Of a stretch of DNA of 64,000 nt, positions 6,262-22,908 are shown piece after piece. Location of the stretch: NCBI RefSeq assembly GCF_000013985.1, contig NC_008048.1, forward strand, positions 1,426,001 through 1,490,000. The letters are read 5' to 3'. Each line of letters starts with the position of its first letter. The stretch's first letter is position 1. The position numbers and the translations under genes were made by a program. This DNA comes from Sphingopyxis alaskensis RB2256 (lineage in GTDB: Bacteria; Pseudomonadota; Alphaproteobacteria; Sphingomonadales; Sphingomonadaceae). Under the pieces are notes generated by a model that saw only the letters and a list, made by a program, of their open reading frames with translations, searched no databases and had not been told where the DNA came from.

Positions 6262-6890
6262 GCGGGCTTCACCGCGTCGGGATGCGCCTTCTGGAAGGCT
6301 TCCAGCTCCATGCACGCCGCGTCGATCGCCACCAGCCGCGGATAATCGTCCAGCGGCGTCTCGAACCGCCGCGCATTATACATTTGCGGCACGAGGCAGC
6401 AGTCGGCGATCCCCGGCGCGTCGCCGCCGAGAAACCTGCCGTCGCCCGCCATCGCTTCGAGCGCGTCGAATCCCTGCACGATCCAGTGGCGATACCAGCG
6501 GTCCTTGGTCTGCTCGTTCAATCCCAGGTCGCGCTTCAGATATTTGAGCACGCGGAGGTTGTTGAGCGGATGGATGTCGCTCGCGATCACCTGCGCCTGC
6601 GCCAAGGCGACCGCGCGCGGCATGGCATCGTCGGGGATAAGCCGCGGCTGCGGAAAGGCGCGATCGAGCCAGTCGATGATCGCCATGCTCTGGATGATCG
6701 GCTCGCCATCGACGACGAGCATCGGCACGAAGCCTTGCGCATTCTGCTCGAGATAGGCATCGCTGCGCTGTTCGCCAGCGATCAGGCTGACCTCGACGCG
6801 CTCATAATCGAGCCCCTTGAGGTTCAGCGCGATGCGCACGCGAAAGCTGGCCGAGGAGCGGAAATAATCGTGGAGGACGAGGTTGGTCAT
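6258..6890 (-). CDS. maiA: Maleylacetoacetate isomerase (zeta-class GST)
   Basis: 210 residues with the glutathione S-transferase fold. The zeta-class active-site signature RSSASFRVRIALNLK is near residue 11, and GFVPMLV and IIQSMAIIDWL form the glutathione site. It converts maleylacetoacetate to fumarylacetoacetate in tyrosine degradation, or maleylpyruvate to fumarylpyruvate in gentisate degradation. The homogentisate partners are not adjacent, although an FAH-family hydrolase and a gentisate-type dioxygenase lie about 9-11 kb away. It is the first gene of a two-gene unit with the TonB receptor. Confidence 0.88.
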   Translation of the reverse strand: MTNLVLHDYFRSSASFRVRIALNLKGLDYERVEVSLIAGEQRSDAYLEQNAQGFVPMLVVDGEPIIQSMAIIDWLDRAFPQPRLIPDDAMPRAVALAQAQVIASDIHPLNNLRVLKYLKRDLGLNEQTKDRWYRHWIVQGFDALEAMAGDGRFLGGDAPGIADCCLVPQMYNARRFETPLDDYPRLVAIDAACMELEAFQKAHPDAVKPA

Positions 6891-7048: not shown

Positions 7049-8080
7049 TCAGCGCGAGCCGTCCTTCACCATCTCCGCAATCCATTGCCGCAGCAGCGCC
7101 GCGCCCTCCCGATGCACCGTCGAGCGCCCGACCTCGGGCATCGCAATTCCGGGATCGGTGCTTTCGAGGCGATAGATCATGAAGCTGCGCTCGGGATCAC
7201 CGGGCGCAATCGCGAAATCCATCCCCCCGCTGCCGCGCCCGGCCGCGGTGGGGCGCTTGCCGATGCCGTAATTCACGCCCGCGGGATCGTCGGTCCAGCG
7301 CAGGAACAGCCCGCTGTTCGACGCGCTGCCCGCCGGATTGTGGCAATGCGCGCAATTGACATCGAGATAGGCGCGTGCGCGGTCGGCGATGCTGCCGCTG
7401 GCCGGATCGTCCCAAACGGGCATCGCCGGTTCGAGCGCCGCGGGCTGATCGAAATAGCGCGCGCGGAGCGACGCCGACGCGGCGGGGTCGAGAACAAGGT
7501 TGCGCACTTTCGGCCCGATCGGCACGATTTCGCCGTTCAGGCTGTGGCATTCCTTGCACTGGTTCCTGTTCGGCACGGCATAGCGAATGGCGTGGCGTTC
7601 GCCCGCCGCGGTCGTGAAGCTCACCGGCACGCGCCGCCCGCCCAATGCCAGCGTCGCATCCTTGCCGTCGGCATCCCAGATATAGGGCAGCGCCGCCCAG
7701 CCCGACGCGCGGCGGATCAACAGCCGCGTCTCGACCGGACGCCCGGCGTTGACGTCGCTCCAGCCGAAGCTCTTGATCAGCACCGTGCCCACCGGAAAGT
7801 CGATCGCGCCATCGGTTGCAACCGTGGCCCTTTTGCCCTCCGGGATCAGCATGAACCGGTGCTTGTCGGCATAGTCGCTGAACAAGGGCGTGCGCAGCGT
7901 ATAGGCGATACCCGCCACTGGGCGGAGCGGATCATTGCCGCGAAACAGGCCGAAGACGGAGAGCTTCGCGGGCATCGCATCGCTTTCCACCAGCGCCTGA
8001 TCGACGGTCGGCAGGGTCAGCGCCGTGCCGCCGCTACTACACAGCAACGCCGCTGTGATCGCGGCAAGGACGCGCTTCAC
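7049..8080 (-). CDS. Diheme c-type lipoprotein of the SO2930 / HNE_0200 type
   Basis: 343 residues with a lipoprotein-like signal (ALLC lipobox, Cys14) and two heme c sites, CKECH (175-179) and CAHCH (243-247). The middle region has a beta-rich domain (FPVGTVLIKSFGW), and the C-terminus carries MPEVGRSTVH, with a possible heme-ligand Met. Start GTG 8080 overlaps the upstream beta-helix gene stop as GTGA. The family is known to co-occur with a parallel beta-helix partner, exactly as here. The protein probably sits in the periplasm, moving electrons; its redox partner is unknown. Confidence 0.82.
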   Translation of the reverse strand: MKRVLAAITAALLCSSGGTALTLPTVDQALVESDAMPAKLSVFGLFRGNDPLRPVAGIAYTLRTPLFSDYADKHRFMLIPEGKRATVATDGAIDFPVGTVLIKSFGWSDVNAGRPVETRLLIRRASGWAALPYIWDADGKDATLALGGRRVPVSFTTAAGERHAIRYAVPNRNQCKECHSLNGEIVPIGPKVRNLVLDPAASASLRARYFDQPAALEPAMPVWDDPASGSIADRARAYLDVNCAHCHNPAGSASNSGLFLRWTDDPAGVNYGIGKRPTAAGRGSGGMDFAIAPGDPERSFMIYRLESTDPGIAMPEVGRSTVHREGAALLRQWIAEMVKDGSR

Positions 8081-9279
8081 CGAACCTTCGCCTCCATGCT
8101 TTCGGGCAGCGTGATCCCCGGCAGCGGCGCGGGCGCCGTGCCTTTGAGGTCGGCGGGCGACGGCTTCGCCGCGCTTTGCGGCATCGCCATGTCGGGCAGG
8201 TTCAGCGACAGCACGCCGACATCGTCGTTGACGATCGCGTCGCCCGACCCGTCCCACAGCACCGGCGGGAGCGTGCCACCCATCGCCGCGGCAATCTCCG
8301 CGCCGCCCGGAAAGGCGGGGGCATAGCCCGCCTTGCCATGCTGATTGTCGCGCACGACGATCGCGCGCGGCAACGGCTGATATTTCGGGTCTTTATGCTC
8401 GTAGCGATAGCCGACGATCATCACATTGGCGGTGCCGTTCTGGTCGAAGATATTGTCGAAAATCTCGACATTGCGGTTCGCCATCACCAGCACGCCGGTC
8501 CCCGTCGGCACACTCGCGACGATATTGCCCGCCGGCGCGAAATTGGGGACGCTGTTGTCGCTGACGATGTTCGAAAAGACGCGGACATTGTGCCCGCCCT
8601 GCATCGGCAGGCTGGGCAGGTCGAACACCAGGATGCCGCCCGTGTTGCGGTTGGCGATATTGTCGTGAACATCGGCGTTATAGCTGTTCTCGATCTCGAT
8701 CCCCGCGACATTTTCGGTCACGACCGATTCGCGCACGACGATATTTTTCGACTGACCGACATAGATGCCGGCGTCCGACGCGCCGCGGACATAGACGCTG
8801 TCGACGAGGACGTCGGTGCTTTCGACCGGATAAATGCCGTAGGCGCCGTTGGTCGCCTTTGGTCCCGCGGTCCATTCGACGCGCAGCTTGTGATAGACGA
8901 TGCGGTCGGCGCCCTTCGACTTGATGCCGTCGCCCTTGGTATTGAGTACCGCGAAATTGGTGAGCAGCACATCGTCGCTGGTGACGAGCAGCCCCTCGCC
9001 CGCGCCCTGCTGCCCCGAAAAGTCGAGGATCGATCCGCCCTCGCCCGTTCCCGCGCCGCGCAGGGTGACATTGGCGACGTCGAGCGACAGCCCGTCGGTC
9101 AGCTTCCACACCCCCGCGCCCAGCTCCACCACATCGCCGGGCTGCGCGAGGATCAGCGCTTCCTGCAATTTTTCGTTCGCGTCGGCGGCATCGGCGCTGA
9201 CGCTGATCGTTCTGGCGGATGCAGGCATCGCCAGCGCGAGCGCGGCGCCGAAAGGCACGACGAGATGATGGAATCGCAT
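8077..9279 (-). CDS. Secreted parallel beta-helix repeat protein
   Basis: 400 residues: signal peptide (LVVPFGAALALAMPASA), then an opening segment LQEALILAQPGDVVELGAG typical of right-handed beta-helix proteins. Successive rungs rich in Asn/Asp/Val follow (VRESVVTENVAGIEIENS, DNIANRNTGGILVF). Such folds often bind or cleave polysaccharide, but no lyase catalytic set is obvious. ATG 9279 has a GGGAGA ribosome site just upstream. It is coupled by a 4-bp overlap to the diheme lipoprotein and is probably its functional partner. Confidence 0.83.
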   Translation of the reverse strand: MRFHHLVVPFGAALALAMPASARTISVSADAADANEKLQEALILAQPGDVVELGAGVWKLTDGLSLDVANVTLRGAGTGEGGSILDFSGQQGAGEGLLVTSDDVLLTNFAVLNTKGDGIKSKGADRIVYHKLRVEWTAGPKATNGAYGIYPVESTDVLVDSVYVRGASDAGIYVGQSKNIVVRESVVTENVAGIEIENSYNADVHDNIANRNTGGILVFDLPSLPMQGGHNVRVFSNIVSDNSVPNFAPAGNIVASVPTGTGVLVMANRNVEIFDNIFDQNGTANVMIVGYRYEHKDPKYQPLPRAIVVRDNQHGKAGYAPAFPGGAEIAAAMGGTLPPVLWDGSGDAIVNDDVGVLSLNLPDMAMPQSAAKPSPADLKGTAPAPLPGITLPESMEAKVR

Positions 9280-9372
9280 CAGACTCTCCCTTGTTTTTTG
9301 CCAGCATGGTGCAAGACTGGGGCAAAGCCAAGCCGCTTGCCGACAGGCTGGTCGCTGCCGGGGGAGGTCGCA

Positions 9373-9786
9373 TTGTTTCTCCGAATTGTCCTGGCGCTCG
9401 GCGCCTTTATCGCCGTGCCGTCGCTCGCCGCCGCGCCATCCGCCCTCGCGGGCCGCTGGAAAACCGACGACGGCAAAGGGATCGTGGTGATGAGCCCATG
9501 CGGCGCAAAGATGTGCGGCCATATCGAGCGGCTGCTCATCAAACAGCCCGCGGGCGGCCAGCTCGACGAGCGCAACCCCGACAAGACCAAGCGCGGCCGC
9601 CAGGTAACGGGCCTGCGCATCTATTGGGATCTCGCCCCGCACGGCGACGGCTGGAAAGGGCAGGGCTACAGCCCCGAGGACGGCCGCTATTACAAGGCGC
9701 ATCTGAGCGTGAAGGGCGACCGGATGACCATGAAGGGCTGCGTCGCGGTCTTCTGCCGCACGGTGACTTGGACGCGCGTGGGGTAA
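9373..9786 (+). CDS. DUF2147 secreted protein
   Basis: 137 residues: signal peptide (LRIVLALGAFIAVPSLAAA), then the DUF2147 pattern, LAGRWKTDDGKGIVVM at the start, a CGAKMCGHIERL turn and GCVAVFCRTVTWTRV at the end. These are small periplasmic beta-barrel proteins of unknown function. The start is a TTG at 9373, chosen because GGGGAGG (9361-9367) lies five bases upstream and because the signal peptide begins there; no ATG fits. It stands alone, divergent from the beta-helix gene. Confidence 0.78.
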   Translation: MFLRIVLALGAFIAVPSLAAAPSALAGRWKTDDGKGIVVMSPCGAKMCGHIERLLIKQPAGGQLDERNPDKTKRGRQVTGLRIYWDLAPHGDGWKGQGYSPEDGRYYKAHLSVKGDRMTMKGCVAVFCRTVTWTRVG

Positions 9787-9800
9787 CGCCGCACCTCTCG

Positions 9801-9887
9801 TTCCGTTCGTGTCGAGCGAAGTCGAGACACCCAACGAACGGGCGCCTAGCCGGAGGGGCATCTCGACTTCGCTCGATGCGAGCGGAA
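9801..9887. repeat. Intergenic palindrome, TCGAGCGAAGTCGAGA type
   Basis: A perfect 16-bp inverted repeat: TCGAGCGAAGTCGAGA at 9812-9827 and TCTCGACTTCGCTCGA at 9861-9876. The outer TTCCG/CGGAA ends are at 9801-9805 and 9883-9887. It lies between the convergent DUF2147 and racemase genes and could also terminate transcription. It resembles the dispersed palindromes common in sphingomonad genomes. Confidence 0.8.
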
Positions 9888-9896
9888 ATAAGGGGC

Positions 9897-10595
9897 TTAC
9901 GCCCCCTCGCCCAAAACCCAATCCACCCCCGCCGCGACGTGAATCCGCGTCGTGTCATAGATCGGCAGAAGATTGGCGTCGGGATCGACGAGCATCACCA
10001 GCTCGGTACAGGCAAGGACGATCGCCTGAATATCCTGTTTGGCGATGTCGGTGATAAAGGTTTTCATCGTGCGCCGCGAGGCTTCGTTGACCTTGCCCAG
10101 CATCAGCTCTTCGTAGATGATCCGGTCGATTTCGTCGGCGCGCGTCGCGTCATAGGGCGCAAGCGTCAGCCCGTGGCGCACGAGCCGCTGGCGAAACCAC
10201 GCCTCGGTCATCACGTTGCGCGTGCCGATCACCGCCGCCGCCTTGACCCCGTCGGCCTTCATCTTCTCGCCGGTTTCGTCGACGATGTGGATGAGCGGGA
10301 TCGAGATGGCCGCCGCAACATCCTCGGCGACCTTGTGCATCGAATTGGCGGCAATCATCAGCGCGGTCGCGCCCGCCGCCTCCAGCCGCTGCGCCGACCC
10401 GATCAACACCTCTTTGGCATGCGCCCATTGTTCATCGGTGGTGATCCGCGACAGGTCGCAATAGTTCAGGCTTTCCATCAGAATCGGCGCCGAACAGCCG
10501 GTGCCGAGGCGCTTCTGCACGCCCTTGTTGAGATGGCGGTAATAAAGCTCGGTCGACGCCCAGCTCATGCCGCCGATCAGGCCGATTTTGCGCAT
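9897..10595 (-). CDS. Aspartate/glutamate racemase-family protein (one catalytic Cys missing)
   Basis: A 232-residue protein close in layout to E. coli YgeA: GLIGGMSWAST at the start, then ANSMHK, IYEELMLGK, ACTELVML and YDTTRIHV. In PLP-independent racemases two Cys act on opposite faces of the substrate. The second is present (Cys196 in ACTE), but the first position, just before Asn84, is Ala83. YgeA-type enzymes carry Thr here and have altered substrate specificity. Activity could be restricted to one enantiomer, lost, or changed to another reaction. Standalone gene. Confidence 0.82.
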   Translation of the reverse strand: MRKIGLIGGMSWASTELYYRHLNKGVQKRLGTGCSAPILMESLNYCDLSRITTDEQWAHAKEVLIGSAQRLEAAGATALMIAANSMHKVAEDVAAAISIPLIHIVDETGEKMKADGVKAAAVIGTRNVMTEAWFRQRLVRHGLTLAPYDATRADEIDRIIYEELMLGKVNEASRRTMKTFITDIAKQDIQAIVLACTELVMLVDPDANLLPIYDTTRIHVAAGVDWVLGEGA

Positions 10596-12482: not shown

Positions 12483-12978
12483 CGCGCGCTCCCCTGCTGA
12501 TTCCGCTTGGCGCACCTCTTGCCGTGGCGACGCCAGCCTGTCGACTCCTAAGCTGTCAAAAAAGAAGCGCCGACATTTCCCAAGGCGGCCGATTCAGGCA
12601 CAATTCGAAATAAAATGTCATCGCCGAAGCCCTTGGCTCGATCAACAGAAGCCGGCTTGGTTGTGGCAACGGTCGGCGTCCGCTTCGGCTGTGCCGGGCC
12701 GGACGTGCGAGCCGGTCGGCGCCGGGGACACGCAATCCTTCCAAAGGTCAGGGAAGTTCAGCCTCTTGATGCCCCCGGTTTTCCGCGTCCGACTCCTGCC
12801 CGCCTCCCCACGCCGACAGCGACCGCCTTTGTCGACATGTTGAAAGAACCGCGGCGAAGGCAGGCACAGCCGGGGCATGTAGGACAGTGCTTTTTTGGGC
12901 GGCGGACGACCGGGATGACGGGAGGGGGTGTGGGCTTTTGCACTGGCAAGATACGCGCCCTGCCCTATATCCGGCCCC
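12483..12978. other. 496-bp stretch with no supported gene
   Basis: It lies between the divergent alpha-2 transhydrogenase gene and aguB. Short open frames exist on both strands (for example minus 12556-12744 and 12758-12949), but none has a convincing ribosome site or a recognisable product. Nothing resembling the transhydrogenase alpha-1 subunit is present. It must hold the promoters for both flanking genes and may contain decayed sequence. Confidence 0.6.
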
Positions 12979-13830
12979 ATGACCCGCACCATCACCGTTG
13001 CCGCGTTGCAGCTTGCCCTGCCCGGCCCCGTCGAACCGAACATCAAGGCTGTCACCGCGCTTGTCGAGGCAGCGGCGGCAAGGGGCGCGCAGATCATCCT
13101 GCCACCCGAACTCTTCGAAGGCCCCTATTTCTGCCAGGTCGAGGAAGAGGAGTTGTTCGCCACCGCACGGCCGACGGCCGAGCATCCGAGCGTCGTCGCG
13201 ATGCAGGCGCTCGCCGCGAAGTGCAAGGTCGCGATCCCGACGAGCTTTTTCGAACGCGACGGGCATCATTATTACAATACGCTGGCGATGATCGGTCCCG
13301 ACGGCGGGATCATGGGCACCTACCGCAAGTCGCACATCCCCGACGGGCCGGGTTACGAAGAAAAATATTATTTCCGCCCCGGCAACACCGGCTTCAAGAT
13401 CTGGGAGGTCTTCGACACCCGCATCGGCGTCGGCGTCTGCTGGGACCAATGGTATCCCGAATGCGCGCGCGCGATGGCGTTGATGGGCGCCGAACTGCTC
13501 TTCTACCCGACGGCGATCGGCAGCGAACCCTATGACGCCGACCTCGACACCAGCCGTATGTGGCGCCGCGCGATGCAGGGTCATGCCGTGTCGAACTGTA
13601 TGCCCGTCATCGCAGCGAACCGCATCGGAACGGAGGGCGACGCGCGTTTCTATGGCCACAGCTTCATCGCCGACGAATGGGGCGATCTGACGCAGGCGTT
13701 TGGCGCCAGCGAAACGGGTGCGCTCGTCGAGACGATCGACCTCGACCGCGCGGCAAAGCATCGTGCGGGGATGGGGTTTTTCCGCGACCGGCGACCACAG
13801 CTTTACGGGCGGCTCGTCGAAGACGTCTGA
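12979..13830 (+). CDS. aguB: N-carbamoylputrescine amidase
   Basis: 283-residue nitrilase-superfamily amidase. The Glu-Lys-Cys triad is visible in PPELFEGPYF, YRKSHIPDGPGYEEKYYF and GVCWDQWYPE. The long conserved blocks GNTGFKIWE and FYPTAIGSEP match AguB closely. It hydrolyses N-carbamoylputrescine to putrescine, CO2 and ammonia, the last step of the agmatine route to polyamines. The partner agmatine deiminase (aguA) is not in the window. ATG 12979 gives the usual length; the longer frame from 12928 adds unrelated residues. Confidence 0.93.
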   Translation: MTRTITVAALQLALPGPVEPNIKAVTALVEAAAARGAQIILPPELFEGPYFCQVEEEELFATARPTAEHPSVVAMQALAAKCKVAIPTSFFERDGHHYYNTLAMIGPDGGIMGTYRKSHIPDGPGYEEKYYFRPGNTGFKIWEVFDTRIGVGVCWDQWYPECARAMALMGAELLFYPTAIGSEPYDADLDTSRMWRRAMQGHAVSNCMPVIAANRIGTEGDARFYGHSFIADEWGDLTQAFGASETGALVETIDLDRAAKHRAGMGFFRDRRPQLYGRLVEDV

Positions 13831-14734: not shown

Positions 14735-15487
14735 TCAGTATCGCCCCGACAGCAGCGCGCCGGCGCCGGGCACTGCGGTGGGCAGGCCGAGGCGCGTGAG
14801 CATCTGGTGCGCGGTACAGATTGCAGCGGACACGACGGGCAGGCCTGTCGCGTCCTCGATCCGTTGCACCGCGGGAAGCGACGGCATCTGGACGCAGGCC
14901 GACAGGACGAGCGCGTCGATGCCCGACAGATCGAGCCGCTTGCAGTGATCCATAAGCCGCGCCGGGTCCTGATTGGCGACCTCCAGATTATCCGCGATTT
15001 CGAGCGCAAGCCAGTCGCCGACCGCCACCCCTTCCCCCTCGATATAGCCGACGACCATTTCGGTCAGGGGCTTCATATAGGGCGCGACGAGCGCAATGCG
15101 CTTTGCGCCCAGCGTGCCAAGGCCCGCGATAAGCGCCCCCGCGCTGGTGACCACCGGGGCCGGATGGCCATTCTCGACCGTGCGCCGGTGCAGCCGTGCT
15201 TCGGAGACGCGATGATAACCCGTACCCATGCTCATGATCGCGACGAGGCAGGCATAGCCGAGCACATCGACCGCGGCGTCGGACAGTTCGAGCGCGCAAC
15301 GGTCGGAATCGGCGTCCATCGCCGCCAGCTCCTGCTTCGTTACCTTCTTCATCCGCATCCGCGACGAGTGGAAGGTAAAGTGTTCGGGCGCCGCGCCTTC
15401 GCGGGCGCGGAGCAGCGCGGGGATTTCGGTTTCCATCGTGACGTTCGAGCTGGGCACGATCTGCCCGATGCGGATGGGCCTGTTCAT
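14735..15487 (-). CDS. Maleate cis-trans isomerase
   Basis: 250 residues of the Asp/Glu racemase superfamily, maleate isomerase branch. Diagnostic features are VPSSNVTMETE (11-21), the first catalytic Cys80 in GYACLVAIMS and the second, Cys198, in LSACVQMPSLP. The enzyme converts maleate to fumarate. It is the last gene of the operon that contains a ring-cleaving bicupin and an FAH-family hydrolase, where it would channel maleate into the TCA cycle. A 71-bp gap with a small palindrome separates it from the FAH gene. An arylmalonate decarboxylase-like role is a less likely alternative. Confidence 0.82.
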   Translation of the reverse strand: MNRPIRIGQIVPSSNVTMETEIPALLRAREGAAPEHFTFHSSRMRMKKVTKQELAAMDADSDRCALELSDAAVDVLGYACLVAIMSMGTGYHRVSEARLHRRTVENGHPAPVVTSAGALIAGLGTLGAKRIALVAPYMKPLTEMVVGYIEGEGVAVGDWLALEIADNLEVANQDPARLMDHCKRLDLSGIDALVLSACVQMPSLPAVQRIEDATGLPVVSAAICTAHQMLTRLGLPTAVPGAGALLSGRY

Positions 15488-15525
15488 ATATTGCCTCGAA
15501 ACATCCTGCATAAAGTGTGAGACCG

Positions 15526-15549
15526 TCATCCCGACCTTTGCCGGGATGC
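15526..15549. repeat. Short palindrome between FAH and maleate isomerase genes
   Basis: CATCCCG and CGGGATG arms flank a loop containing ACCTTTGC, a reduced form of the CGTCATCCCGGC...GCCGGGATGAC family seen at 10618 and 62269. It may act as an mRNA-stability or attenuation hairpin inside the operon. Confidence 0.55.
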
Positions 15550-15558
15550 AAAAAAGGG

Positions 15559-16467
15559 TCAGACCGCGACAACCGGGTTGCGGAGTGTGCCGATGCCTTC
15601 GACGGTGCATTCGACGACATCGCCGGGCCACAGAAACTCCTGCGGATCGCGCCCCGCGCCGACCCCGGCGGGCGTTCCGGTCGCGATGATGTCGCCGGGT
15701 TCGAGCGTCATCACACGGGCAATGTCAGCGATCAGCTGGGGCACGTTGAACAGCATGAAGCGCGTGTTGCTGTTCTGCTTTTCCACTCCGTTCACATGGG
15801 TGAGGATATTGAGATTATGCGGGTCGCCGATCTCGTCGGCGGTGACGATGCATGGCCCCATGGGGGCAAAGCTGTCCTGCCCTTTCGAGACGATCCATTG
15901 CCCGGCGCGGCGGCAGTCACGCGCCGACACATCGTTGATGACGGTATAGCCGAACACGTGGTTCAGCGCGTCGGCCTCGGCCACGCCGCGCGCGGTACTG
16001 CCGATGATCACCGCCAATTCAGTTTCCCAGTCGAGTTGCTGTGTCACTTTCGCATTGTGACGGATCGGGTCGTTCCACGCGGCGACGGCCGTGGGCGGCT
16101 TCGAGAAGATCACCGGCTGCTGCGGCAGTTCGTGCGCGGTATCGAGCGCGCGGGCGGATTCGGCGACATGCTCGGTATAGTTAAGCCCGATGCCGAAGAT
16201 ATTCTTGCGCGGGCGCGGGATCGGCGCGAGCAAGGTGACATTGCCCTGGGGCAGCGAAGTGCCGAGCAGGTCGGCGGGCGTCGCGCTTTCGACCGCTTCG
16301 CGCAGGAAGCGCGGGCCGATCGGTCCCAGGTCGATGAAATCGAGCATCGTCGATGGCAAATCCTGCCCGATCGCATCGCCGAAATAATCGACATCGATCA
16401 CAAGGCCGTCGTGGAGAAGGCCCAGCCGCGGTTCGGTTTCGACCGTGCGATATGTTACGAAGCGCAT
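15559..16467 (-). CDS. Fumarylacetoacetate hydrolase-family acylpyruvate hydrolase
   Basis: 302 residues of the FAH superfamily: FGIGLNYTEHV opens the catalytic domain, DWETELAVIIG carries two acidic metal ligands, and NDVSARD and GDIIATGTPAGVG are family blocks. These enzymes split C-C bonds of acylpyruvates such as fumarylpyruvate or maleylpyruvate. Placed directly behind a gentisate-type dioxygenase (13-bp overlap) and before a maleate isomerase, it most likely cleaves the ring-fission product to pyruvate plus a C4 acid or its amide. ATG 16467 was chosen because the domain starts there. Confidence 0.87.
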   Translation of the reverse strand: MRFVTYRTVETEPRLGLLHDGLVIDVDYFGDAIGQDLPSTMLDFIDLGPIGPRFLREAVESATPADLLGTSLPQGNVTLLAPIPRPRKNIFGIGLNYTEHVAESARALDTAHELPQQPVIFSKPPTAVAAWNDPIRHNAKVTQQLDWETELAVIIGSTARGVAEADALNHVFGYTVINDVSARDCRRAGQWIVSKGQDSFAPMGPCIVTADEIGDPHNLNILTHVNGVEKQNSNTRFMLFNVPQLIADIARVMTLEPGDIIATGTPAGVGAGRDPQEFLWPGDVVECTVEGIGTLRNPVVAV

Positions 16468-17594
16468 ATTTGATGTCCGTCGTTTTTCGGGAAAGGTTCC
16501 TCGATCCGGACGCCGAGCGCCTCCATCACGGGGAAGTCGTTGAACGAGAAGAGGAAGGCTTCTTCCGCGGCATCGAGATTGACATGCTCGTGCCAGGTCC
16601 ACGCGGGCACACAGAAAATATCGTGTGTCTGCCAGTCGTACCGCTGACCGCCGATGATCGAACAGCCGCGGCCGCGCGCGACATTATAGACGACATTGCC
16701 CGTGTGGCGGTGCGCCTTGCCGCGAAAACCGCCGGGCAGCATCCGCATATGCGCGCCCATCGTCTGGAGCGCCCAGCCGCCGGTCAGCGGGTTGGCATAG
16801 CGCATCATATGACCGTCGAAGGGCGACCCGACCGACACTTTCGCAAGGTTCAACAAGGCATCGCGCACGGCCTCCCAGCGATAGACCATCACCGGCGAAT
16901 AGGGTTTTTCCCAGGCCGCGACGCCTTCGGGGCGGAGCGCCGCGCCGCCATAGGTCAGCGGCAGATCGTCCGCCGGATAGGCTGCCGTCTGCGCGGGCTG
17001 GTCGTAGACGGCATAGAAATTGGTTTCGAGGCTGTTCATCAGCGGGATGTCGAGCCCGTCCTGCCAGATCGACACTTCGCCGTCGGCGGCGACGCCATGG
17101 TCGTGCCAGCAGCCGTTCGGGGTCAGCACATAGTCGTTGGCACCCAGCGTGATGTGATGCCCGTCGACAACGGTATAGGCGCCCTTCCCCTCCATGATGA
17201 AACGGTGCGCCGACGCCGTGTGTTTGTGCGCGGGGGTGATCTCGCCGGGGCGCATCGCCTGCATTCCGCTGAACAGCCAGCCGCACACCGCGACATTCTC
17301 GCGCCCCGCATCGCTGTCGTTGAGCAGGGTGACGACGCGCCGCCCCGCTTCGTCGGGCCTTACGAGATCAAGCGCGCGCAGGCACATGGCGCGCATCTCG
17401 GCATAACGCCAGAGCGTCGGGCGATAGCGCGTGGCGGGCTCCCATGGTTCGATCGCATTGGCGCGCTTCCAGAAGGCGCCGGCGTTGCGCGCCGCGAGCT
17501 CTTCGTAAAACGCCTCCAGCTCGGGCGTGTCGGTGACGCGCGACCGGCCGAGCACGTCGTCGCGCGGATCGATGATCGTCGAAGGGCCTGTCAT
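16455..17594 (-). CDS. Gentisate 1,2-dioxygenase-like bicupin ring-cleavage dioxygenase
   Basis: 379 residues with two cupin domains. The first has HKH at 123-125 and WHDH at 163-166 (candidate Fe(II) ligands His123, His125, His164). The second has HRH at 295-297 and WHEH at 334-337. Relatives cleave gentisate, salicylate, 1-hydroxy-2-naphthoate or aminosalicylates between C1 and C2. In this operon it follows kynureninase, so the natural substrate is probably a kynurenine-derived aminobenzoate rather than gentisate itself; that is inference. Start overlaps the nitrilase stop as ATGA. Confidence 0.83.
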   Translation of the reverse strand: MTGPSTIIDPRDDVLGRSRVTDTPELEAFYEELAARNAGAFWKRANAIEPWEPATRYRPTLWRYAEMRAMCLRALDLVRPDEAGRRVVTLLNDSDAGRENVAVCGWLFSGMQAMRPGEITPAHKHTASAHRFIMEGKGAYTVVDGHHITLGANDYVLTPNGCWHDHGVAADGEVSIWQDGLDIPLMNSLETNFYAVYDQPAQTAAYPADDLPLTYGGAALRPEGVAAWEKPYSPVMVYRWEAVRDALLNLAKVSVGSPFDGHMMRYANPLTGGWALQTMGAHMRMLPGGFRGKAHRHTGNVVYNVARGRGCSIIGGQRYDWQTHDIFCVPAWTWHEHVNLDAAEEAFLFSFNDFPVMEALGVRIEEPFPKNDGHQICAS

Positions 17595-18607
17595 GGCGGT
17601 GTCTCCTCGTCAGGATCGACAGGCTGCTCGGCGTCGACAAACCGCGCCGACGCGCGGGGCGTCCGGTCGACCGTCAGGTTGAAGATGTCGAAGCGGTTAT
17701 AGCCGCCGATGATGTCGTGCATCAGCTTGGGCCGGATACACTCGCCGAGGTCGATGTCGGCATAGACGATGCCTTCGGCGTCGATCAGCGGCTCGCCGAC
17801 CGGATGGCCATGCGGGTCGATCACGCCCGACCAGGCGCTGTTCGGGCGCGACAGCAGGTCGCGGTTCTGCGGGCGACCCTCGGACATCGCCGCGATGATC
17901 TCCTCGCTCAGCGCCGAACAGGCGACGATGGTGAAGACCTTGCCCTCGAAGCTGTGCGCGGTGGCGCGGATCCTGATCGCTTCGGCCATATTGTAGGAGG
18001 CGGGAGCGACAGGCAGCGCGATATAATTGGCGACGTGGACCAGTTCGCCCTGCGACAGCAAGGCGAAGCGCGCGAGCGTGTTCGTATTCTCCCCGCACGC
18101 CAGCGTGCCGAGCGGCCCGACCGACGTGTCATGGACGCGGATCGAGCTGCCGTCGCCGCCCGCCCATGTCAGCTTTTCGGCCCAGGTCGGCACCAGCTTG
18201 CGATGACGCCCGAGCAGGCTGCCGTCGGCGCCGATGACGAGGTTGCTGTTATAGAGCGTGCCGACGCTCACCGGATCGCGCTCGTTGATGCCGATGACGA
18301 GCGTGCAGCCATGGTCGCGCGCCGCGGCGCAGAGTGCGGCGACCTCCGGGCCGTCCACGCGGACCGACGCGCGATACAGCCGCTCGTGCCATTCGGCGCC
18401 CTCGATCGGGGTCATCAGCCAGTTCCAATAGGGATAGGCGGGGACGAACACCTCCGGGAAGGCGACGAGCTGCGCGCCATTTCCGGCCGCCTCGGCGATC
18501 AACGCACACGCCTTGTCGACCGTCGCTGCCGGATCGAGGAACACCGGCGCCGCCTGCACTGCGGCGACGCGCGATTTGGGCAGGAGGGAGGCCGACGTAT
18601 CGCTCAT
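17591..18607 (-). CDS. Nitrilase-family carbon-nitrogen hydrolase
   Basis: 338 residues of the true nitrilase branch: Glu52 in FPEVFVPAYP, Lys137 in RHRKLVPTWAEKLTW and Cys171 in LACGENTNTLARF. Known members hydrolyse nitriles to acids and ammonia; superfamily members also hydrolyse amides. Its place between kynU and the ring-cleaving dioxygenase, coupled at both ends by ATGA overlaps, suggests a step in tryptophan breakdown. A maleamate-type amide is an attractive but unproven substrate; a nitrile such as indole-3-acetonitrile is an alternative. It is distinct from AguB at 12979. Confidence 0.85.
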   Translation of the reverse strand: MSDTSASLLPKSRVAAVQAAPVFLDPAATVDKACALIAEAAGNGAQLVAFPEVFVPAYPYWNWLMTPIEGAEWHERLYRASVRVDGPEVAALCAAARDHGCTLVIGINERDPVSVGTLYNSNLVIGADGSLLGRHRKLVPTWAEKLTWAGGDGSSIRVHDTSVGPLGTLACGENTNTLARFALLSQGELVHVANYIALPVAPASYNMAEAIRIRATAHSFEGKVFTIVACSALSEEIIAAMSEGRPQNRDLLSRPNSAWSGVIDPHGHPVGEPLIDAEGIVYADIDLGECIRPKLMHDIIGGYNRFDIFNLTVDRTPRASARFVDAEQPVDPDEETPP

Positions 18608-19845
18608 GTCACCGCCGCCCGCTGGTGATATTGCGGCTTGTCCCACGCGCGGGTGGCGCAGACCCTTTCGAGCCGTTCGACCGTCTCGACGATGTCGCTG
18701 TACCGCAGGTAAAGCGGCGTCAGCCCGAAGCGCAAAATGTCGGGGGCGCGGAAGTCCGCAATGACATCCAGTTCCCTGAGCGCCTGCGCGATCTGATAGC
18801 CCTGGCGGTGCGCATAGGCGACCTGGCTGCCGCGCAGCGCATGATCGCGCGGGCTTGCCAGAGCAAAGCCATAGGCATCGCACAAGGGCTGCATCCGCGC
18901 GATGAGTAGATCGCCAAGCGCCAGCGACTTGCGGCGCACCTCGGCCATATCGGCTTCGAGCATCAGGTCGACGCCGACTTCGAGCGCCGCAAGACCCAGC
19001 ACCGGCGGCGTGCCGCACTGGAAGCGTGCGATCCCGGCGGCGGGATCATAATCCTCCTCGAAATCGAACGGCCGCGCGTGACCGAACCAGCCCGACAAGA
19101 TCGGCGTGGCGCCATGGTGCCGCGCAGCGGCAAAGAGATAGGCCGGCGCACCGGGGCCACCGTTGAGAAACTTGTAGCCGCAACCGATCGCAAAATCGGC
19201 GTTCGCACCGTTGAGATCGACCGGAATCGCCCCCGCGCTGTGGCTCAGATCCCAGACGATCAGCGCGCCCGCTTCGTGCGCGGCGCGCGTGATCGCCGCC
19301 ATGTCGCGAACGCGGCCCGACTTGTAGTGCACCTGCGTCAGCAGCAGCACCGCCACCTCATCGCTCAGCGCATCGACGATGGCATCGGGCGCCACCGTGA
19401 CCGCCTTCACACGCCCGCCCGAAAAAGCCTCGATCCCCTGCATCATATATACGTCGGTCGGAAAGTTGGTGGCTTCCGACAGGATCACCGGGCGTTCGCG
19501 CCGCAAGGAAAGCGCGGCGGTCAACGCCTTGAAGATATTGACCGAGGTGGAATCGGTCGCGACGATCTCGCCGGGGTGGGCGCCGACCAGCCGGGCGATC
19601 TTGTCGCCGATCCGCCGCGGGGCGGTCGACCATGAGGCGCCGAGCCACGAGGTGATCAGCCCCTCGCCCCACTCGTCGCCGATGACTTCGGCGAGCCGGT
19701 CGCCCGTCGCCCTGGGCAACGCACCGAGCGAATTGCCGTCGAGATAGATCAGCCCTTCGCGCAGATGAAAGCGGTCGCGAAAAGGCGCGAGCGGGTCGCC
19801 CGCGTCGAGCGACACCACATCGGCGACGGCCATCGTGCCGGTCAT
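18604..19845 (-). CDS. kynU: Kynureninase
   Basis: A 413-residue PLP enzyme of the aminotransferase class V fold. It has LDGNSLGALPR near residue 35, FPTDVYM, the DLSHSAGAIPVDL block with the PLP-binding Asp199, and the Schiff-base Lys225 in GCGYKFLNGGPG. It cleaves kynurenine (or hydroxykynurenines) to anthranilate (or its hydroxy form) and alanine. It is coupled by ATGA overlaps to kynB upstream and the nitrilase downstream. Length and all motifs are normal. Confidence 0.96.
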   Translation of the reverse strand: MTGTMAVADVVSLDAGDPLAPFRDRFHLREGLIYLDGNSLGALPRATGDRLAEVIGDEWGEGLITSWLGASWSTAPRRIGDKIARLVGAHPGEIVATDSTSVNIFKALTAALSLRRERPVILSEATNFPTDVYMMQGIEAFSGGRVKAVTVAPDAIVDALSDEVAVLLLTQVHYKSGRVRDMAAITRAAHEAGALIVWDLSHSAGAIPVDLNGANADFAIGCGYKFLNGGPGAPAYLFAAARHHGATPILSGWFGHARPFDFEEDYDPAAGIARFQCGTPPVLGLAALEVGVDLMLEADMAEVRRKSLALGDLLIARMQPLCDAYGFALASPRDHALRGSQVAYAHRQGYQIAQALRELDVIADFRAPDILRFGLTPLYLRYSDIVETVERLERVCATRAWDKPQYHQRAAVT

Positions 19846-20471
19846 GCGATTTCCCTCAGAATGGCGCGCACCGGGCTGGCATCGGCGCCGACGATGCGCA
19901 GCGGCAGGGCAATCAGTTCGTAGCGGCCGGGCGGCACATCATCGAGCACCAGCCCCTCCAGGATCCGCATGTCGGCAGCCTTCACCGCCTGATGCGCGTC
20001 GAGCGTTTTCGACTGTTCGGGATCGAGCGAGGCGGCGTCGGTGCCGATCAGGCGGACGCCCATCGCACCAAACCGTTCGATCACGTCCGCAGCGACGGCG
20101 GTGAAATCGCTGTCCCATTTTTCGTGCGGAAATTGTTCATAGGTTCGCAGCAGGACACGCTCTGCGCCGTCGACGCAGCTCCAGTCGATGTCGCCAATCT
20201 CCACCCGCCCGCGCGCATGGCGCACGTCGATGAGCGCGCACGGTCCGATATAGGGAGCGAGTTCGCAGTCGGCCGACGAGGCGCCGTCATTGCTGTAATG
20301 GAGCGGCGCATCGCCGTGCGTCCCCGCGTGCAGCGGCGTGAACATGCCGCCGACATTGACCGGACAGCCCTCGCCGATCACCGCATGGCTGTGGAGCGAG
20401 AAGGCGGGCTCGCCGGGCCACACCGGCACCGCGGCGTGCAGCGGCTGGGAAATGTCCCAAATCCGGCTCAT
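19842..20471 (-). CDS. kynB: Kynurenine formamidase (arylformamidase)
   Basis: 209 residues of the metal-dependent cyclase/KynB family. The metal motif HAGTHGDAPLHYS is intact, as are WDISQPLHAAVPVWPG at the N-terminus and GTDAASLDP later on. It removes formate from N-formylkynurenine. ATG 20471 overlaps the kynA stop as ATGA (20468-20471), which rules out the longer frame from 20657. Confidence 0.96.
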   Translation of the reverse strand: MSRIWDISQPLHAAVPVWPGEPAFSLHSHAVIGEGCPVNVGGMFTPLHAGTHGDAPLHYSNDGASSADCELAPYIGPCALIDVRHARGRVEIGDIDWSCVDGAERVLLRTYEQFPHEKWDSDFTAVAADVIERFGAMGVRLIGTDAASLDPEQSKTLDAHQAVKAADMRILEGLVLDDVPPGRYELIALPLRIVGADASPVRAILREIA

Positions 20472-21373
20472 TTGCGTTCCCCTGCCGCATAGTCGCCACC
20501 CTCGCGCGGCGCGACCATTTCGGTCCGCATCGACCAGAGTTCGGGAAAGAAGCTGAGATCGAGCGCCTTGACGAGATAATTGACCCCCGACGAGCCGCCC
20601 GTCCCCGGCTTGTGCCCGATCACGCGCGCGACGGTCTTCATGTGCTTGAAGCGCCATTCCTGGAAATAATACTCAAGCGCCGTGACCTTTTCAGCGAGCG
20701 TGTAGAGATCCCAATGCCGTTCGGGGTCGGTATAGATCGCGAGCCACGCCTGCTCGACCGCTTCCGACGTCGCATAGGGCTGCGTCCAGTCGCGCTCCAG
20801 ATGCCCCGCCGGTATGGCGAAGCCGCGCCGCGCGAGCAGCCGCAGCAGCTCGTCATAGAGCGACGGCGCCTCAAACACCGCGCGCAACCGTGCCGTGGCT
20901 TCCGCGTCGTCCTTGTGGACGATCATCATGTCGCCGCGCTTGTTGCCGAGCAGATATTCGAGTTCGCGATACTGCTGCGACTGGAACCCCGACGCGCGGC
21001 GGAGGAACCCGCGAAAGGTCAGGAAATCATGCGGGGTCAGCGTCGCGAGCACTTCCCAGCTGTGGATCATGTGGCGCTGGATCGTCGCGATGCGGTCAAG
21101 CCCCTTGCCCGCGATTTCGAGCCGATCGTCCTTGATCGCGTCATGGACGAGGCGCGCCTCGTGCAGCACCAGCTTGAGCCACAGCTCCATCGTCTGGTGC
21201 ATGATGATGAACAGCATCTCATCGGGCTTGTCCGACACGGGCACCTGCGCCGAAAGCAACTGCGCGGTCTGGATGTGGCGCGCATAGGTCAGCCCGTTGT
21301 CCCACTGGATCGTTTCGCCGTCGATCTCGGTTTCGAAAACCTCGGTGTCGCCATCGCGCGTCTGCCTGATCAT
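20468..21373 (-). CDS. kynA: Tryptophan 2,3-dioxygenase
   Basis: A 301-residue heme enzyme. The conserved blocks LTYARHIQTAQLLS, MLFIIMHQTMELWLKL, GFQSQQYRELEYLLGN and the C-terminal GTGGSSGVNYL are all present. The heme ligand His sits in the EWRFKHM segment. It opens the indole ring of tryptophan to N-formylkynurenine. ATGA overlaps join it to the aromatic hydroxylase gene upstream and kynB downstream. Confidence 0.97.
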   Translation of the reverse strand: MIRQTRDGDTEVFETEIDGETIQWDNGLTYARHIQTAQLLSAQVPVSDKPDEMLFIIMHQTMELWLKLVLHEARLVHDAIKDDRLEIAGKGLDRIATIQRHMIHSWEVLATLTPHDFLTFRGFLRRASGFQSQQYRELEYLLGNKRGDMMIVHKDDAEATARLRAVFEAPSLYDELLRLLARRGFAIPAGHLERDWTQPYATSEAVEQAWLAIYTDPERHWDLYTLAEKVTALEYYFQEWRFKHMKTVARVIGHKPGTGGSSGVNYLVKALDLSFFPELWSMRTEMVAPREGGDYAAGERK

Positions 21374-22242
21374 GTCGCCGCCTCTCCGCTCGCCGGACGG
21401 ACCGGCAGGCGTCCTTCATAGGCGACATCGCCGCGCCACGCATCACCCGGCGCGAGCGCCGGCTCGTTCGCGATCTTGCGATAGAGGCTCGCGAAATCGG
21501 CCTCCTCGGTCGCGCGCAGCAATTGATCGAACCCCTCGACGACGAAATAGGTCTGCTGAAAGGCGTCGAAATGATAGCGCGTCCGCATCGCGCGCTCGAC
21601 GTCGAGCCAGATGCGCCGCGGTTCGGGAGCGGTCAGCGCAAAGGCCGTTTCGGCGAGGCTGGAGAGCAGGCCGCCGCCGAAGGCGCGCAATTCGCCCTCC
21701 TCCACCACCAGCCCGAACTCGACCGTATAGAGCCAGAGCCGCCCGAGATAATCCGACGCGCCCAAGCTTTCGGCGCGCAGTCCCGCCTCGCCATAGGCGA
21801 CCAGAAAGTCGCCGAAGGCGGGATTGGCCAGCATCGGCACATGCCCGAAAATGTCGTGAAACATGTCGGGCTCTTCGCTGTAGGCGATCTGTTCGGGCGG
21901 ACGCACAAAATTGGCGGCGGGAAAGCGCCGGTTCGCCAGATGCTCGAAAAAGGGGGCGTTGGGGATCCAGCCGGGAACCGCGACAACCTCCCATCCCGAT
22001 GCCGGTTTCAGCAGAGCGTTGAGCTCGGCAAAATCGGGAACACCGGGTCTGAGCCGACGAAGCAGGCCCAGCCCGTCGAGGAAGGCGCGGCAGGCATAGC
22101 CCCCCATCGCCGCCGACTGCCGGTCGAACAAGGTCCGCCACGTGCGATGCTGTTCGGGCGTGAAGGCCTGCCACTCCTGCGGCATCGTCCAGTCGGCCGC
22201 GACGCCTTCGGGCGGTGCGTCGAAGATATGCGTCGCGGCCAA
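21370..22242 (-). CDS. phhA: Pterin-dependent aromatic amino acid hydroxylase (phenylalanine- or tryptophan-type)
   Basis: 290 residues of the bacterial single-domain hydroxylase family. The iron facial triad is His129 and His134 (FHDIFGHVPML) plus Glu175 (YTVEFGL). Four residues before the Glu, where phenylalanine hydroxylases have Trp and animal tryptophan hydroxylases have Phe, this protein has Leu171, so a substrate larger than Phe is possible. TTG 22242 was chosen because GGGAGAGAGG lies just upstream; a TTG at 22290 would add 16 residues. First gene of the kyn operon. No pterin dehydratase (phhB) is nearby. Confidence 0.85.
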   Translation of the reverse strand: MAATHIFDAPPEGVAADWTMPQEWQAFTPEQHRTWRTLFDRQSAAMGGYACRAFLDGLGLLRRLRPGVPDFAELNALLKPASGWEVVAVPGWIPNAPFFEHLANRRFPAANFVRPPEQIAYSEEPDMFHDIFGHVPMLANPAFGDFLVAYGEAGLRAESLGASDYLGRLWLYTVEFGLVVEEGELRAFGGGLLSSLAETAFALTAPEPRRIWLDVERAMRTRYHFDAFQQTYFVVEGFDQLLRATEEADFASLYRKIANEPALAPGDAWRGDVAYEGRLPVRPASGEAAT

Positions 22243-22299
22243 GCCTCTCTCCCGGATTGTCTTTCGAAAGAGTAGCGCGAACCCAGGCAAACATTGTTC

Positions 22300-22319: not shown

Positions 22320-22428
22320 TCCGTTTCGGGTCAAATGTCCTTTCATTATTCCATAAGGCAGAACATAATCCTGTAGAATGGCGCAATGAATGCGGCATTT
22401 GGTTGTAAAGCGACTCAGGACGGAACGA

Positions 22429-22908
22429 ATGGACAGGCTCGACTGGAAAATCATCGCCGGTCTCGAACGCGACGGGCGGCTATCCTATGCCGAGCTGGGC
22501 GAGCAGGTCGGCCTGTCCAAATCGCCTTGCTGGTCGCGGGTCAAGGCGCTGGAGGCGGGCGGCGTGATCGAGGGTTATGCGGCGCGGATCGACCCCGCGA
22601 CGATTGGGCTGGCAGTGCAGAGTTTTGTCGAGGTTCAGATCCGTTTCGACGCGCATGGCGAGTTCGAGGCCGCCGTGCTCGCGCATCCGGCGGTCGTCGA
22701 ATGCCACACCACCGCGGGCGACAGCGACTATATGCTCAAGATTTTCGCGCGCTCGGCCGATCATCTCGACGAGCTGCTGCGGCACAATCTGTCGAAACTG
22801 CCCGGCGTGCAGCGGCTCAAAACGGTCGTGTGCCTCAAGACGATCAAGCGCCACGGCGAGTTGACCGCATGGGCGCGCACCAGCGAAGACCGCGGCCGAC
22901 CGCGCTAG
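22429..22908 (+). CDS. Lrp/AsnC-family transcriptional regulator
   Basis: 159 residues. The N-terminal helix-turn-helix (DWKIIAGLERDGRLSYAELGEQVGLSKSPCWSRVKALEAGGVI) precedes a RAM ligand-binding domain (AVVECHTTAGDSDYMLKIFA). Such regulators sense amino acids and often control the divergently transcribed catabolic operon; here that operon begins with an aromatic amino acid hydroxylase and tryptophan dioxygenase, so an aromatic amino acid is the likely effector. ATG 22429 gives the normal start MDRLDWKI. Confidence 0.92.
   Translation: MDRLDWKIIAGLERDGRLSYAELGEQVGLSKSPCWSRVKALEAGGVIEGYAARIDPATIGLAVQSFVEVQIRFDAHGEFEAAVLAHPAVVECHTTAGDSDYMLKIFARSADHLDELLRHNLSKLPGVQRLKTVVCLKTIKRHGELTAWARTSEDRGRPR

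Follow-up and report, generated by a model that had tools for sequence, protein, structure and literature searches.

The locus described here, an eight-gene operon of Sphingopyxis alaskensis RB2256, is best explained as a route for tryptophan catabolism through 5-hydroxylated intermediates, a reading that the comparisons below make probable. The predicted end products of this route appear to be pyruvate, alanine, ammonia and fumarate. The gene pattern is unusually consistent, and several of its parts look to be misnamed in databases.

The operon and the proposed route

In the proposed scheme the pterin-dependent hydroxylase would convert tryptophan to 5-hydroxytryptophan, the indole ring of which would be opened by KynA to give N-formyl-5-hydroxykynurenine. 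Formate would then be removed by KynB, and KynU would generate alanine and 5-hydroxyanthranilate. Cleavage of the latter by the bicupin between C1 and C2 would yield maleamylpyruvate, an amide, since this mode of cleavage in a ring of the para-aminophenol type turns the amino carbon into an amide carbon. The FAH-family enzyme would split maleamylpyruvate into pyruvate and maleamate, from which the nitrilase-type enzyme would release ammonia to leave maleate, with the isomerase finally producing fumarate. The substrate of every step is a prediction from protein comparison, as are the point at which hydroxylation occurs and the assignment of the nitrilase-type enzyme as an amidase.

Within the window, the 64,000-nucleotide stretch of DNA that was analysed, the locus extends over 14735-22242 (or 22290), with all eight genes on the minus strand (Table 1). 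Its gene content, overlaps, families, conserved catalytic positions, linkage and pocket substitutions are direct observations. The initial annotation had described eight minus-strand genes, the first seven overlapping at six junctions of which five are ATGA, and this is borne out by the computed junctions: four-base ATGA overlaps join hydroxylase/KynA, KynA/KynB, KynB/KynU, KynU/nitrilase and nitrilase/bicupin (n = 5), bicupin and FAH overlap by 13 bases, and the maleate isomerase is set off from the FAH gene by a 71-base gap. The eight gene families that it had named are also upheld by family-model scores and matches to solved structures.

Table 1. Genes of the operon and the divergent regulator gene, in window coordinates.
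Feature	Position	Strand	Assignment and basis
Pterin-dependent aromatic amino acid hydroxylase	21370..22242	-	predicted tryptophan 5-hydroxylase; TTG start 22242 or 22290
KynA, tryptophan 2,3-dioxygenase family	20468..21373	-	predicted 5-hydroxytryptophan user
KynB, arylformamidase	19842..20471	-	TIGR03035 above cut-off; ATGA overlap
KynU, kynureninase	18604..19845	-	TIGR01814 above cut-off
Nitrilase-superfamily enzyme	17591..18607	-	PF00795; predicted maleamate amidohydrolase
Gentisate-type bicupin	16455..17594	-	TIGR02272, 3bu7 likeness; predicted 5-hydroxyanthranilate 1,2-dioxygenase
FAH-family hydrolase	15559..16467	-	PF01557, 6jvv likeness; predicted maleamylpyruvate hydrolase
Maleate cis-trans isomerase	14735..15487	-	Amdase 66.3 bits; 4fq7 337.6 bits, both Cys motifs conserved
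Lrp/AsnC-family regulator, divergent	22390..22908	+	PF01037 74.8 bits

The hydroxylase, KynA, KynB, KynU, nitrilase and bicupin genes occur together in 30 fetched loci, drawn from the Sphingomonadales plus one member of the Kordiimonadaceae. FAH is also present in 29 of the 30 (L033 stops before it) and the maleate isomerase in 26, L024 having only a 34-residue piece and L019 and L067 none within the available stretch. Chance gene order was rejected because 30 loci share the arrangement. The divergent Lrp/AsnC-family gene, found in 29/30 of these loci and absent from L024, is probably the regulator of the operon. Two genes of the window resemble neighbours of the Woeseiaceae clusters, probably by coincidence, and have no match in the other Sphingopyxis loci compared.

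The hydroxylase and the kynurenine enzymes

The hydroxylase matches Biopterin_H (PF00351, 137.9 bits) in a family-model search and scores above the cut-off of the Phe-4-hydroxylase equivalog (TIGR01267, 284.9 vs 264.75 bits). Translation from the TTG at 22242, with the TTG at 22290 also open, gives 290 amino acids, the commonest length among the homologues listed (53/120). Fundamental to its predicted specificity are residues L101 and W180 of CvPAH, which are the two positions mutated to raise tryptophan hydroxylation, with L101Y-W180F giving a 5.2-fold kcat (PMC4029321). In the alignment the S. alaskensis operon enzyme carries Trp in place of L101 and Leu in place of W180. Among 45 usable aromatic amino acid hydroxylase (AAAH) rows, with identical proteins counted once and L085, a fragment of a longer AAAH, left out, all 35 of the operon clade have Leu at 180 and Trp, Val or Phe, never Leu, at 101, and all 10 outside it, the paralogue from the same genome included, keep L101/W180. 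The operon clade has tree support of 100/100. Phe at position 180 is absent from the operon enzyme and occurs in 1 of the 120 homologues listed. For XcPAH, whose W179 aligns with CvPAH W180, 5-HTP is reported from W179F and W179Y, none from W179L and likewise 0 from the wild type (PMC11885754); Leu alone therefore confers no tryptophan activity in the XcPAH background. The genome has one match to pterin-4a-carbinolamine dehydratase (109.5 bits, G000:C2:1921990), which would serve the L101/W180 paralogue too. The pocket and its conservation argue with good probability that the operon hydroxylase acts on tryptophan itself, such that hydroxylation would take place at the level of tryptophan.

KynA clears the Pfam cut-off for Trp_dioxygenase (PF03301, 205 vs 34.9 bits) and falls under that of TIGR03036 (355 vs 390.7). 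Aligned with XcTDO, it has Y27 replaced by His and Y113 by Phe. The indole-pocket swap Y27H is found in 43 of 72 KynA rows (identical proteins counted once), 37 of them from hydroxylase loci, where it is universal (37/37, one a truncated duplicate); it is also present in 4/4 Woeseiaceae rows. The remaining 29 rows have Tyr at this position, among them the two solved references and an Embleya KynA from a module locus. On the trees, that of KynA being built without L018, the Leu-180 and His-27 signatures each fit a single origin, and the rows that carry them, mostly Sphingopyxis, are therefore not independent events. A KynA-like protein of Reyranella (L037) also has H27 and is not claimed as convergence because its branch length is extreme. 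KynB lies above the arylformamidase cut-off (TIGR03035, 243.5 vs 223.05 bits) and KynU above that for kynureninase (TIGR01814, 292 vs 246.4 bits), the latter also matching the solved kynureninase 1qz9 with 424 bits. The kynurenine-type steps are very likely as assigned.

The lower module

The bicupin matches Cupin_2 in two stretches, scores under the gentisate 1,2-dioxygenase cut-off (TIGR02272, 291.8 vs 442.1) and has as its closest solved relative 3bu7 (514 bits), named a gentisate dioxygenase by its depositors. The positions of SDO H119, H121 and H160, which we take to be the Fe ligands, are kept as His in 66/66 close and 24/24 distant bicupin rows. E49 aligns with SDO M46, presumably a pocket residue, and is Glu in 65/66 close rows; any functional role for it is speculation. 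The bicupin has 5-hydroxyanthranilate as its probable substrate.

What, then, is the context of 3bu7 itself? The 370 residues printed for 3bu7 (GDOsp) all recur without a mismatch in Ruegeria pomeroyi SPO_RS20405, a gene of locus SPO_RS20400-RS20415. The gene order of this locus, a nitrilase-type gene, the bicupin, FAH and an Asp/Glu-racemase-type gene, agrees with that in S. alaskensis, and the two bicupins are 59.9% identical, but it differs in that the 21-kb stretch has no match to KynABU or AAAH and the neighbours are indolepyruvate oxidoreductase, thioesterase and MarR genes. The crystallised "gentisate dioxygenase" is thus encoded in the module, inside an indolepyruvate-oxidoreductase island.

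Nitrilase, bicupin, FAH and maleate isomerase travel together as one module. Gene presence was scored at identity thresholds around bicupins close to that of S. alaskensis (67 loci from several searches seeded with that protein, strongly biased to Sphingopyxis, the window itself left out) and around distant ones, without L002, L070, L133 and L157 (own-window copies, a contig piece and a broken copy). A nitrilase accompanies 57/67 close bicupins, as the operon type in 48 and a second type in 9 more, vs 0/25 distant ones; a maleate isomerase of at least 55% identity accompanies 43/67 vs 0/25. At these thresholds 10/67 close loci have no nitrilase and 24/67 no isomerase. The nitrilase itself matches CN_hydrolase (PF00795, 133.5 bits), falls far under the Nit6803 cut-off (TIGR04048, 230.2 vs 502.6) and aligns with solved nitrilases at Glu, Lys and Cys, presumably the catalytic residues; it is the likely amidase of the route. 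The FAH protein matches FAA_hydrolase (PF01557, 237.9 bits), and its solved relatives include the maleylpyruvate hydrolase 6jvv (125.6 bits). The last gene almost certainly encodes a maleate isomerase, given its 337.6-bit match to the solved maleate cis-trans isomerase 4fq7 with the YAC and SAC motifs aligned.

Distribution

Across 346 genomes of the order, 11 motif matches were taken as AAAH, and each of these either belongs to a KynABU cluster or has the bicupin some 4 kb away. Leu-motif matches in 8 of 19 order-scan and 2 of 3 phylum-scan genomes had no AAAH similarity within 16-18 kb and were judged to be chance. The expectation that hydroxylase, bicupin and nitrilase co-vary holds in the Sphingomonadales, with some exceptions. 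Four genomes (G079, G269, G323 and G295) carry hydroxylase-KynABU with no bicupin match anywhere in the genome, the gene lists around these clusters, read by eye, revealing no obvious biosynthetic set; another genome, G021, has the module with neither hydroxylase nor KynABU in its locus. A further genome, G109, has an H27 KynA with KynB and KynU, no bicupin and no Leu-motif AAAH, nor any AAAH in the 19.5 kb read.

The hydroxylase is not a constant partner of the module, as Woeseiaceae, G021 and R. pomeroyi illustrate. KynA and KynU are attached to the module in Woeseiaceae and Embleya, and six module-carrying Woeseiaceae genomes have no PF00351 match, although these may be incomplete as the assemblies are only 1.1-2.0 Mb. 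The module also sits in indolepyruvate oxidoreductase islands, and in Flavobacterium agri it is joined by an enzyme of salicylyl-CoA 5-hydroxylase/oxidoreductase architecture, a CoA ligase and a thioesterase. 2-Aminobenzoyl-CoA monooxygenase/reductase is described as able to yield 5-hydroxyanthraniloyl-CoA (PMC3534580), and such alternative upper pathways could also have 5-hydroxyanthranilate as their product.

Alternative explanations

Could the hydroxylase simply be a phenylalanine hydroxylase (PAH) lodged within a KynABU operon, with KynU forming anthranilate and another hydroxylase or a CoA route supplying 5-hydroxyanthranilate? The family-model name and TIGR01267 score, the Woeseiaceae that combine KynA/KynU and the module with no AAAH detected, and the inactivity of XcPAH W179L on tryptophan (PMC11885754) all favour this. 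It is made unlikely by the loss of both Phe-pocket residues throughout the clade, by the presence of a paralogue of the ordinary type elsewhere in the genome, by the tie to KynABU or the module that the order scan revealed, by the altered KynA pocket and by an operon that holds no second hydroxylase gene. A 3-hydroxyanthranilate route was considered and rejected: the genome gave no 3-HAO match, but no control genome gave one either, so such a gene may still be present.

It is less probable still that 5-hydroxyanthranilate is first deaminated to gentisate, leaving the bicupin as an ordinary gentisate dioxygenase and the FAH protein as a maleylpyruvate hydrolase. Such a deamination was described for Nocardia opaca (Cain 1968, as reviewed in PMC4539516), 3bu7 bears the gentisate label, and gentisate would proceed by way of maleylpyruvate to pyruvate and maleate with no need of an amidase. 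However, none of the known aryl-amine aminohydrolase families is represented in the operon, the bicupin is well under the gentisate cut-off, and a nitrilase-superfamily enzyme, of a family acting on nitriles and amides, is a companion of most close bicupins and of no distant one. Least probable is that hydroxylase-KynABU has a function unrelated to growth, its product being 5-hydroxyanthranilate or some other hydroxykynurenine derivative, with the lower module a later disposal route. The four upper-only genomes and G109, whose KynA is of the same clade, fit this; the single overlapping operon of Sphingopyxis and the surroundings of the upper-only clusters count against it. A route through 5-hydroxyanthranilate, as initially proposed, remains favoured by comparison: the Phe-specificity residues of the hydroxylase are lost and the KynA pocket is altered, the lower four genes travel together, the product of the last one closely resembles a maleate isomerase of solved structure, and in other bacteria the upper route joined to the module is of the anthraniloyl-CoA/salicylyl-CoA 5-hydroxylase type.

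Relation to known pathways

The operon shares the grouping of KynA, KynB and KynU with the anthranilate pathway of tryptophan degradation, but is headed by a pterin hydroxylase, has a changed KynA indole pocket and encodes ring fission of the gentisate rather than the catechol type. Bicupin ring cleavage and FAH-type acylpyruvate hydrolysis are held in common with the gentisate pathway that runs through maleylpyruvate hydrolase and maleate, whereas the predicted substrate has NH2 for the 2-OH and would therefore demand an amide intermediate and an amidase. The nicotinate pathway ends, through its Nic genes, in the conversion of maleamate to maleate and fumarate. The last predicted metabolites here are the same, matched by an isomerase near 4fq7, but maleamate hydrolysis would fall to a nitrilase-superfamily enzyme; 0/8 genes match an isochorismatase family. 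Tryptophan hydroxylation is also a step of the human serotonin pathway. Animal tryptophan hydroxylase (TPH) belongs to the same superfamily and has the reaction predicted here, whereas the operon enzyme is nearer bacterial PAH by score and has Leu at CvPAH-180, where Phe is common in TPH according to PMC11885754.

A broader reading, which we favour on balance, is that a native clade of bacterial tryptophan 5-hydroxylases, annotated as PAH, starts a separate route, and that the 3bu7 bicupin subfamily comprises 5-hydroxyanthranilate 1,2-dioxygenases. These would be the common point of entry into a nitrilase/FAH/maleate-isomerase module that some bacteria supply through 5-hydroxytryptophan and the kynurenine enzymes and others, in indole-degradation islands, through 5-hydroxylation of anthraniloyl-CoA. 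If the proposed route is true, 5-hydroxyanthranilate, a compound known from a 1968 report on Nocardia (PMC4539516), would have genes assigned to it, and two subfamilies would be re-assigned, one of nitrilases and the other that of the crystallised "gentisate dioxygenase". There would be one more route of tryptophan degradation, and bacteria would own a dedicated tryptophan 5-hydroxylase, used in catabolism, the activity that metabolic engineers obtain by mutating bacterial phenylalanine hydroxylases (PMC4029321, PMC11885754).

Operon organisation and predicted pathway

The eight minus-strand genes described in the initial annotation are present, extending from 14735 to 22242 or 22290 depending on which TTG start is chosen for the hydroxylase, and computing the junctions gave the six overlaps it reported, five of them ATGA and the sixth of 13 bases, with the maleate isomerase gene separated from the preceding gene by 71 bases. 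The gene names proposed there match the Pfam and NCBIfam assignments, several with scores below the NCBIfam equivalog cut-offs. The closest named relatives of the window bicupin and KynA are from Sphingopyxis.

What, then, would such a set of enzymes accomplish? The suggested route from tryptophan to fumarate is the best explanation and is quite probably correct. Carbon 5 of the indole ends up as carbon 5 of anthranilate, opposite the amino group on the ring, and hence 5-hydroxyanthranilate, the predicted bicupin substrate, has the same para arrangement as gentisate. Ring fission between C1 and C2, an established type of reaction here acting on a predicted substrate, would generate an amide at C2, which would account for an amidase-type step on the way from the cleaved ring to maleate. 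The firmest chemical statement of the pathway is the putative maleate intermediate, since the last gene scores 337.6 bits against the solved maleate cis-trans isomerase 4fq7. In the open-access literature searched, which leaves out most subscription journals, no comparable bacterial operon or pathway came to light, and the word maleamylpyruvate does not occur. 5-Hydroxyanthranilate followed by gentisate is recorded for Nocardia opaca (Cain 1968, via review PMC4539516), and 5-nitrosalicylate dioxygenase is given as inactive on 5-hydroxyanthranilate (PMC10306065).

Several other features were considered alongside the operon (see table). MaiA probably belongs to another pathway; a maleyl intermediate is in principle a conceivable substrate for it. 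The N-carbamoylputrescine amidase is a second nitrilase-superfamily gene close to the operon, of a distinct family. The CxxCH-motif and beta-helix-like proteins have homologues (about 40-41% and 51-53%) directly upstream of the Woeseiaceae module clusters and are unmatched in the other Sphingopyxis loci compared.

Features near the operon and the gene of the solved bicupin relative
Feature	Location	Strand	Remarks
Maleylacetoacetate isomerase MaiA	6258-6890	-	TIGR01262, 256.6 bits; ~8 kb from operon
CxxCH-motif protein	7049-8257	-	motifs in sequence
Parallel beta-helix-like protein	8077-9921	-	homologues upstream of Woeseiaceae module clusters
N-carbamoylputrescine amidase	12928-13830	+	TIGR03381, 441.5 bits
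SPO_RS20405 (L150)	NC_006569.1 119912-121036		Ruegeria pomeroyi; gene of 3bu7 'gentisate 1,2-dioxygenase'

Substrate pockets of the hydroxylase and KynA

Residues 101 and 180 of the Chromobacterium phenylalanine hydroxylase (CvPAH) were taken from the alignment and mapped onto 46 rows of pterin-dependent aromatic amino acid hydroxylases (AAAH), one being an unusable fragment. The 35 operon-clade rows, which form one side of a branch supported 100/100, all have Leu at position 180, with Trp (23), Val (10) or Phe (2) at position 101. Leu101/Trp180 is found in every one of the remaining 10 usable rows, among them CvPAH itself and a paralogue encoded by the window genome. A protein search listed 120 homologues; W101/L180 is found in 119 of these and W101/F180 in one, and those whose names appear, which are some of the 120, are all called phenylalanine hydroxylase. 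Aligned positions 138, 143 and 184, which we take to be the iron ligands, are intact as His, His and Glu in 45/45 rows, and the window genome contains a pterin carbinolamine dehydratase.

The operon-clade substitutions sit at positions of substrate choice, because mutations there alter tryptophan activity. For instance, L101Y-W180F raises the kcat of CvPAH on tryptophan 5.2-fold (PMC4029321), and the Xanthomonas enzyme XcPAH is switched to tryptophan by W179F and gives zero 5-hydroxytryptophan with W179L, W179I or W179M (PMC11885754). An example of tryptophan activity with Leu at CvPAH position 180 in another background is not known.

For KynA, 72 rows were mapped with the Xanthomonas enzyme XcTDO as reference. 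Position 27, which presumably lines the indole pocket, is His in 43 of them: hydroxylase loci account for 37, including a truncated duplicate, and Woeseiaceae for four; one is from Reyranella, on a very long branch, and one from genome G109, whose KynABU cluster lacks the module and has no hydroxylase found in the 19.5 kb read. The remaining 29 rows have Tyr, among them both solved references, the KynA of Embleya, itself inside a module locus, and that of genome G021, where the module is located apart from it. The tree is compatible with a single origin of His27. On our reading, KynA of the His27 clade may accept a hydroxylated substrate, which in turn suggests that in Woeseiaceae hydroxylation would precede ring opening; a search of six Woeseiaceae assemblies, all small, gave no AAAH match.

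Conservation and distribution

A single scan of a genome collection in which each species is represented once found 69 bicupin loci. When all window proteins were compared with these, the window gene order proved to recur in Sphingopyxis (in four loci, L020, L021, L022 and L025, the hydroxylase and Lrp genes have been relocated), and related clusters were found in Novosphingobium, Aurantiacibacter, Erythrobacter and Kordiimonadaceae. The hydroxylase, KynA, KynB, KynU, nitrilase and bicupin occur together in 30 loci, accompanied by FAH in 29, an Lrp gene in 29 and maleate isomerase in 26. Where the isomerase was not scored, the L033 stretch stops too early, L024 keeps a 34-residue piece, and none was found in the stretches examined of L019 and L067.

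A wider tally, excluding four copies or pieces, set 67 loci with close bicupins (53-93% identity) against 25 with distant ones (31-42%), the latter assumed from family resemblance to be gentisate dioxygenases. FAH at 50% identity or more is present in 63/67 close loci and 0/25 distant ones, 22 of which have a more remote relative. One or other of two nitrilase types (at least 55%) occurs in 57/67 close loci, whereas the distant loci gave zero matches at this threshold and even at E 1e-5; maleate isomerase (at least 55%) occurs in 43/67 against 0/25, L056 being the sole distant locus with a relative, at 31%. Nitrilase is absent at threshold from ten close loci (L034, L037, L038, L039, L041, L154, L160, L161, L162, L168), four of which are stretches of just 6 to 13 kb.

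A second nitrilase subfamily and a flavin reductase gene accompany bicupin and FAH in L101-L106, L156, L165 and L167, standing in place of the window-type nitrilase and maleate isomerase; those of L101-L106 match the window nitrilase at 35-38%.

A DNA pattern for the Leu motif matched 19/346 genomes of the order (reversed control, 2 genomes). Eleven were taken as AAAH and the other eight, in which AAAH similarity was absent, were set aside. Seven matches lie ~4 kb from a bicupin on the same contig (the window genome G000, G098, G185, G220, G348, G349, G111), as placed by coordinates, the window's alone being translated in that scan; in G079, G269, G323 and G295 the motif AAAH comes first in AAAH-KynA-KynB-KynU clusters without the lower module. 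Hydroxylase-KynABU clusters without any lower module are recorded as loci L109-L112. A slightly tighter pattern matched three of 398 phylum genomes, the window being the only AAAH among them.

The lower module and its upper routes

The best solved relative of the window bicupin is 3bu7 (514 bits), deposited as a gentisate dioxygenase. The best plasmid match, SPO_RS20405 on the R. pomeroyi megaplasmid (59.9% identity), includes all 370 printed 3bu7 residues, letter-identical, and is flanked by a carbon-nitrogen hydrolase gene on one side and FAH and Asp/Glu-racemase genes on the other, the products of which are 66, 64 and 70% identical to their window counterparts. The substrate annotated for 3bu7 may be wrong.

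The R. pomeroyi module lies within an island of indolepyruvate oxidoreductase, thioesterase and MarR genes, an arrangement also found on Shinella and Sagittula plasmids. In Flavobacterium agri it is joined to an enzyme of salicylyl-CoA 5-hydroxylase/oxidoreductase architecture, accompanied by a 4HBT thioesterase and an enzyme resembling benzoate-CoA ligase, and in the actinomycete Embleya KynA, KynU, nitrilase, bicupin, FAH and isomerase are clustered. PMC3534580 offers a precedent for 5-hydroxylation of anthraniloyl-CoA under NADH limitation. 5-Hydroxyanthranilate would plausibly be the common product of the differing upper routes, more tentatively so for the indolepyruvate islands. The predicted operon pathway is a new combination built from known enzyme families.
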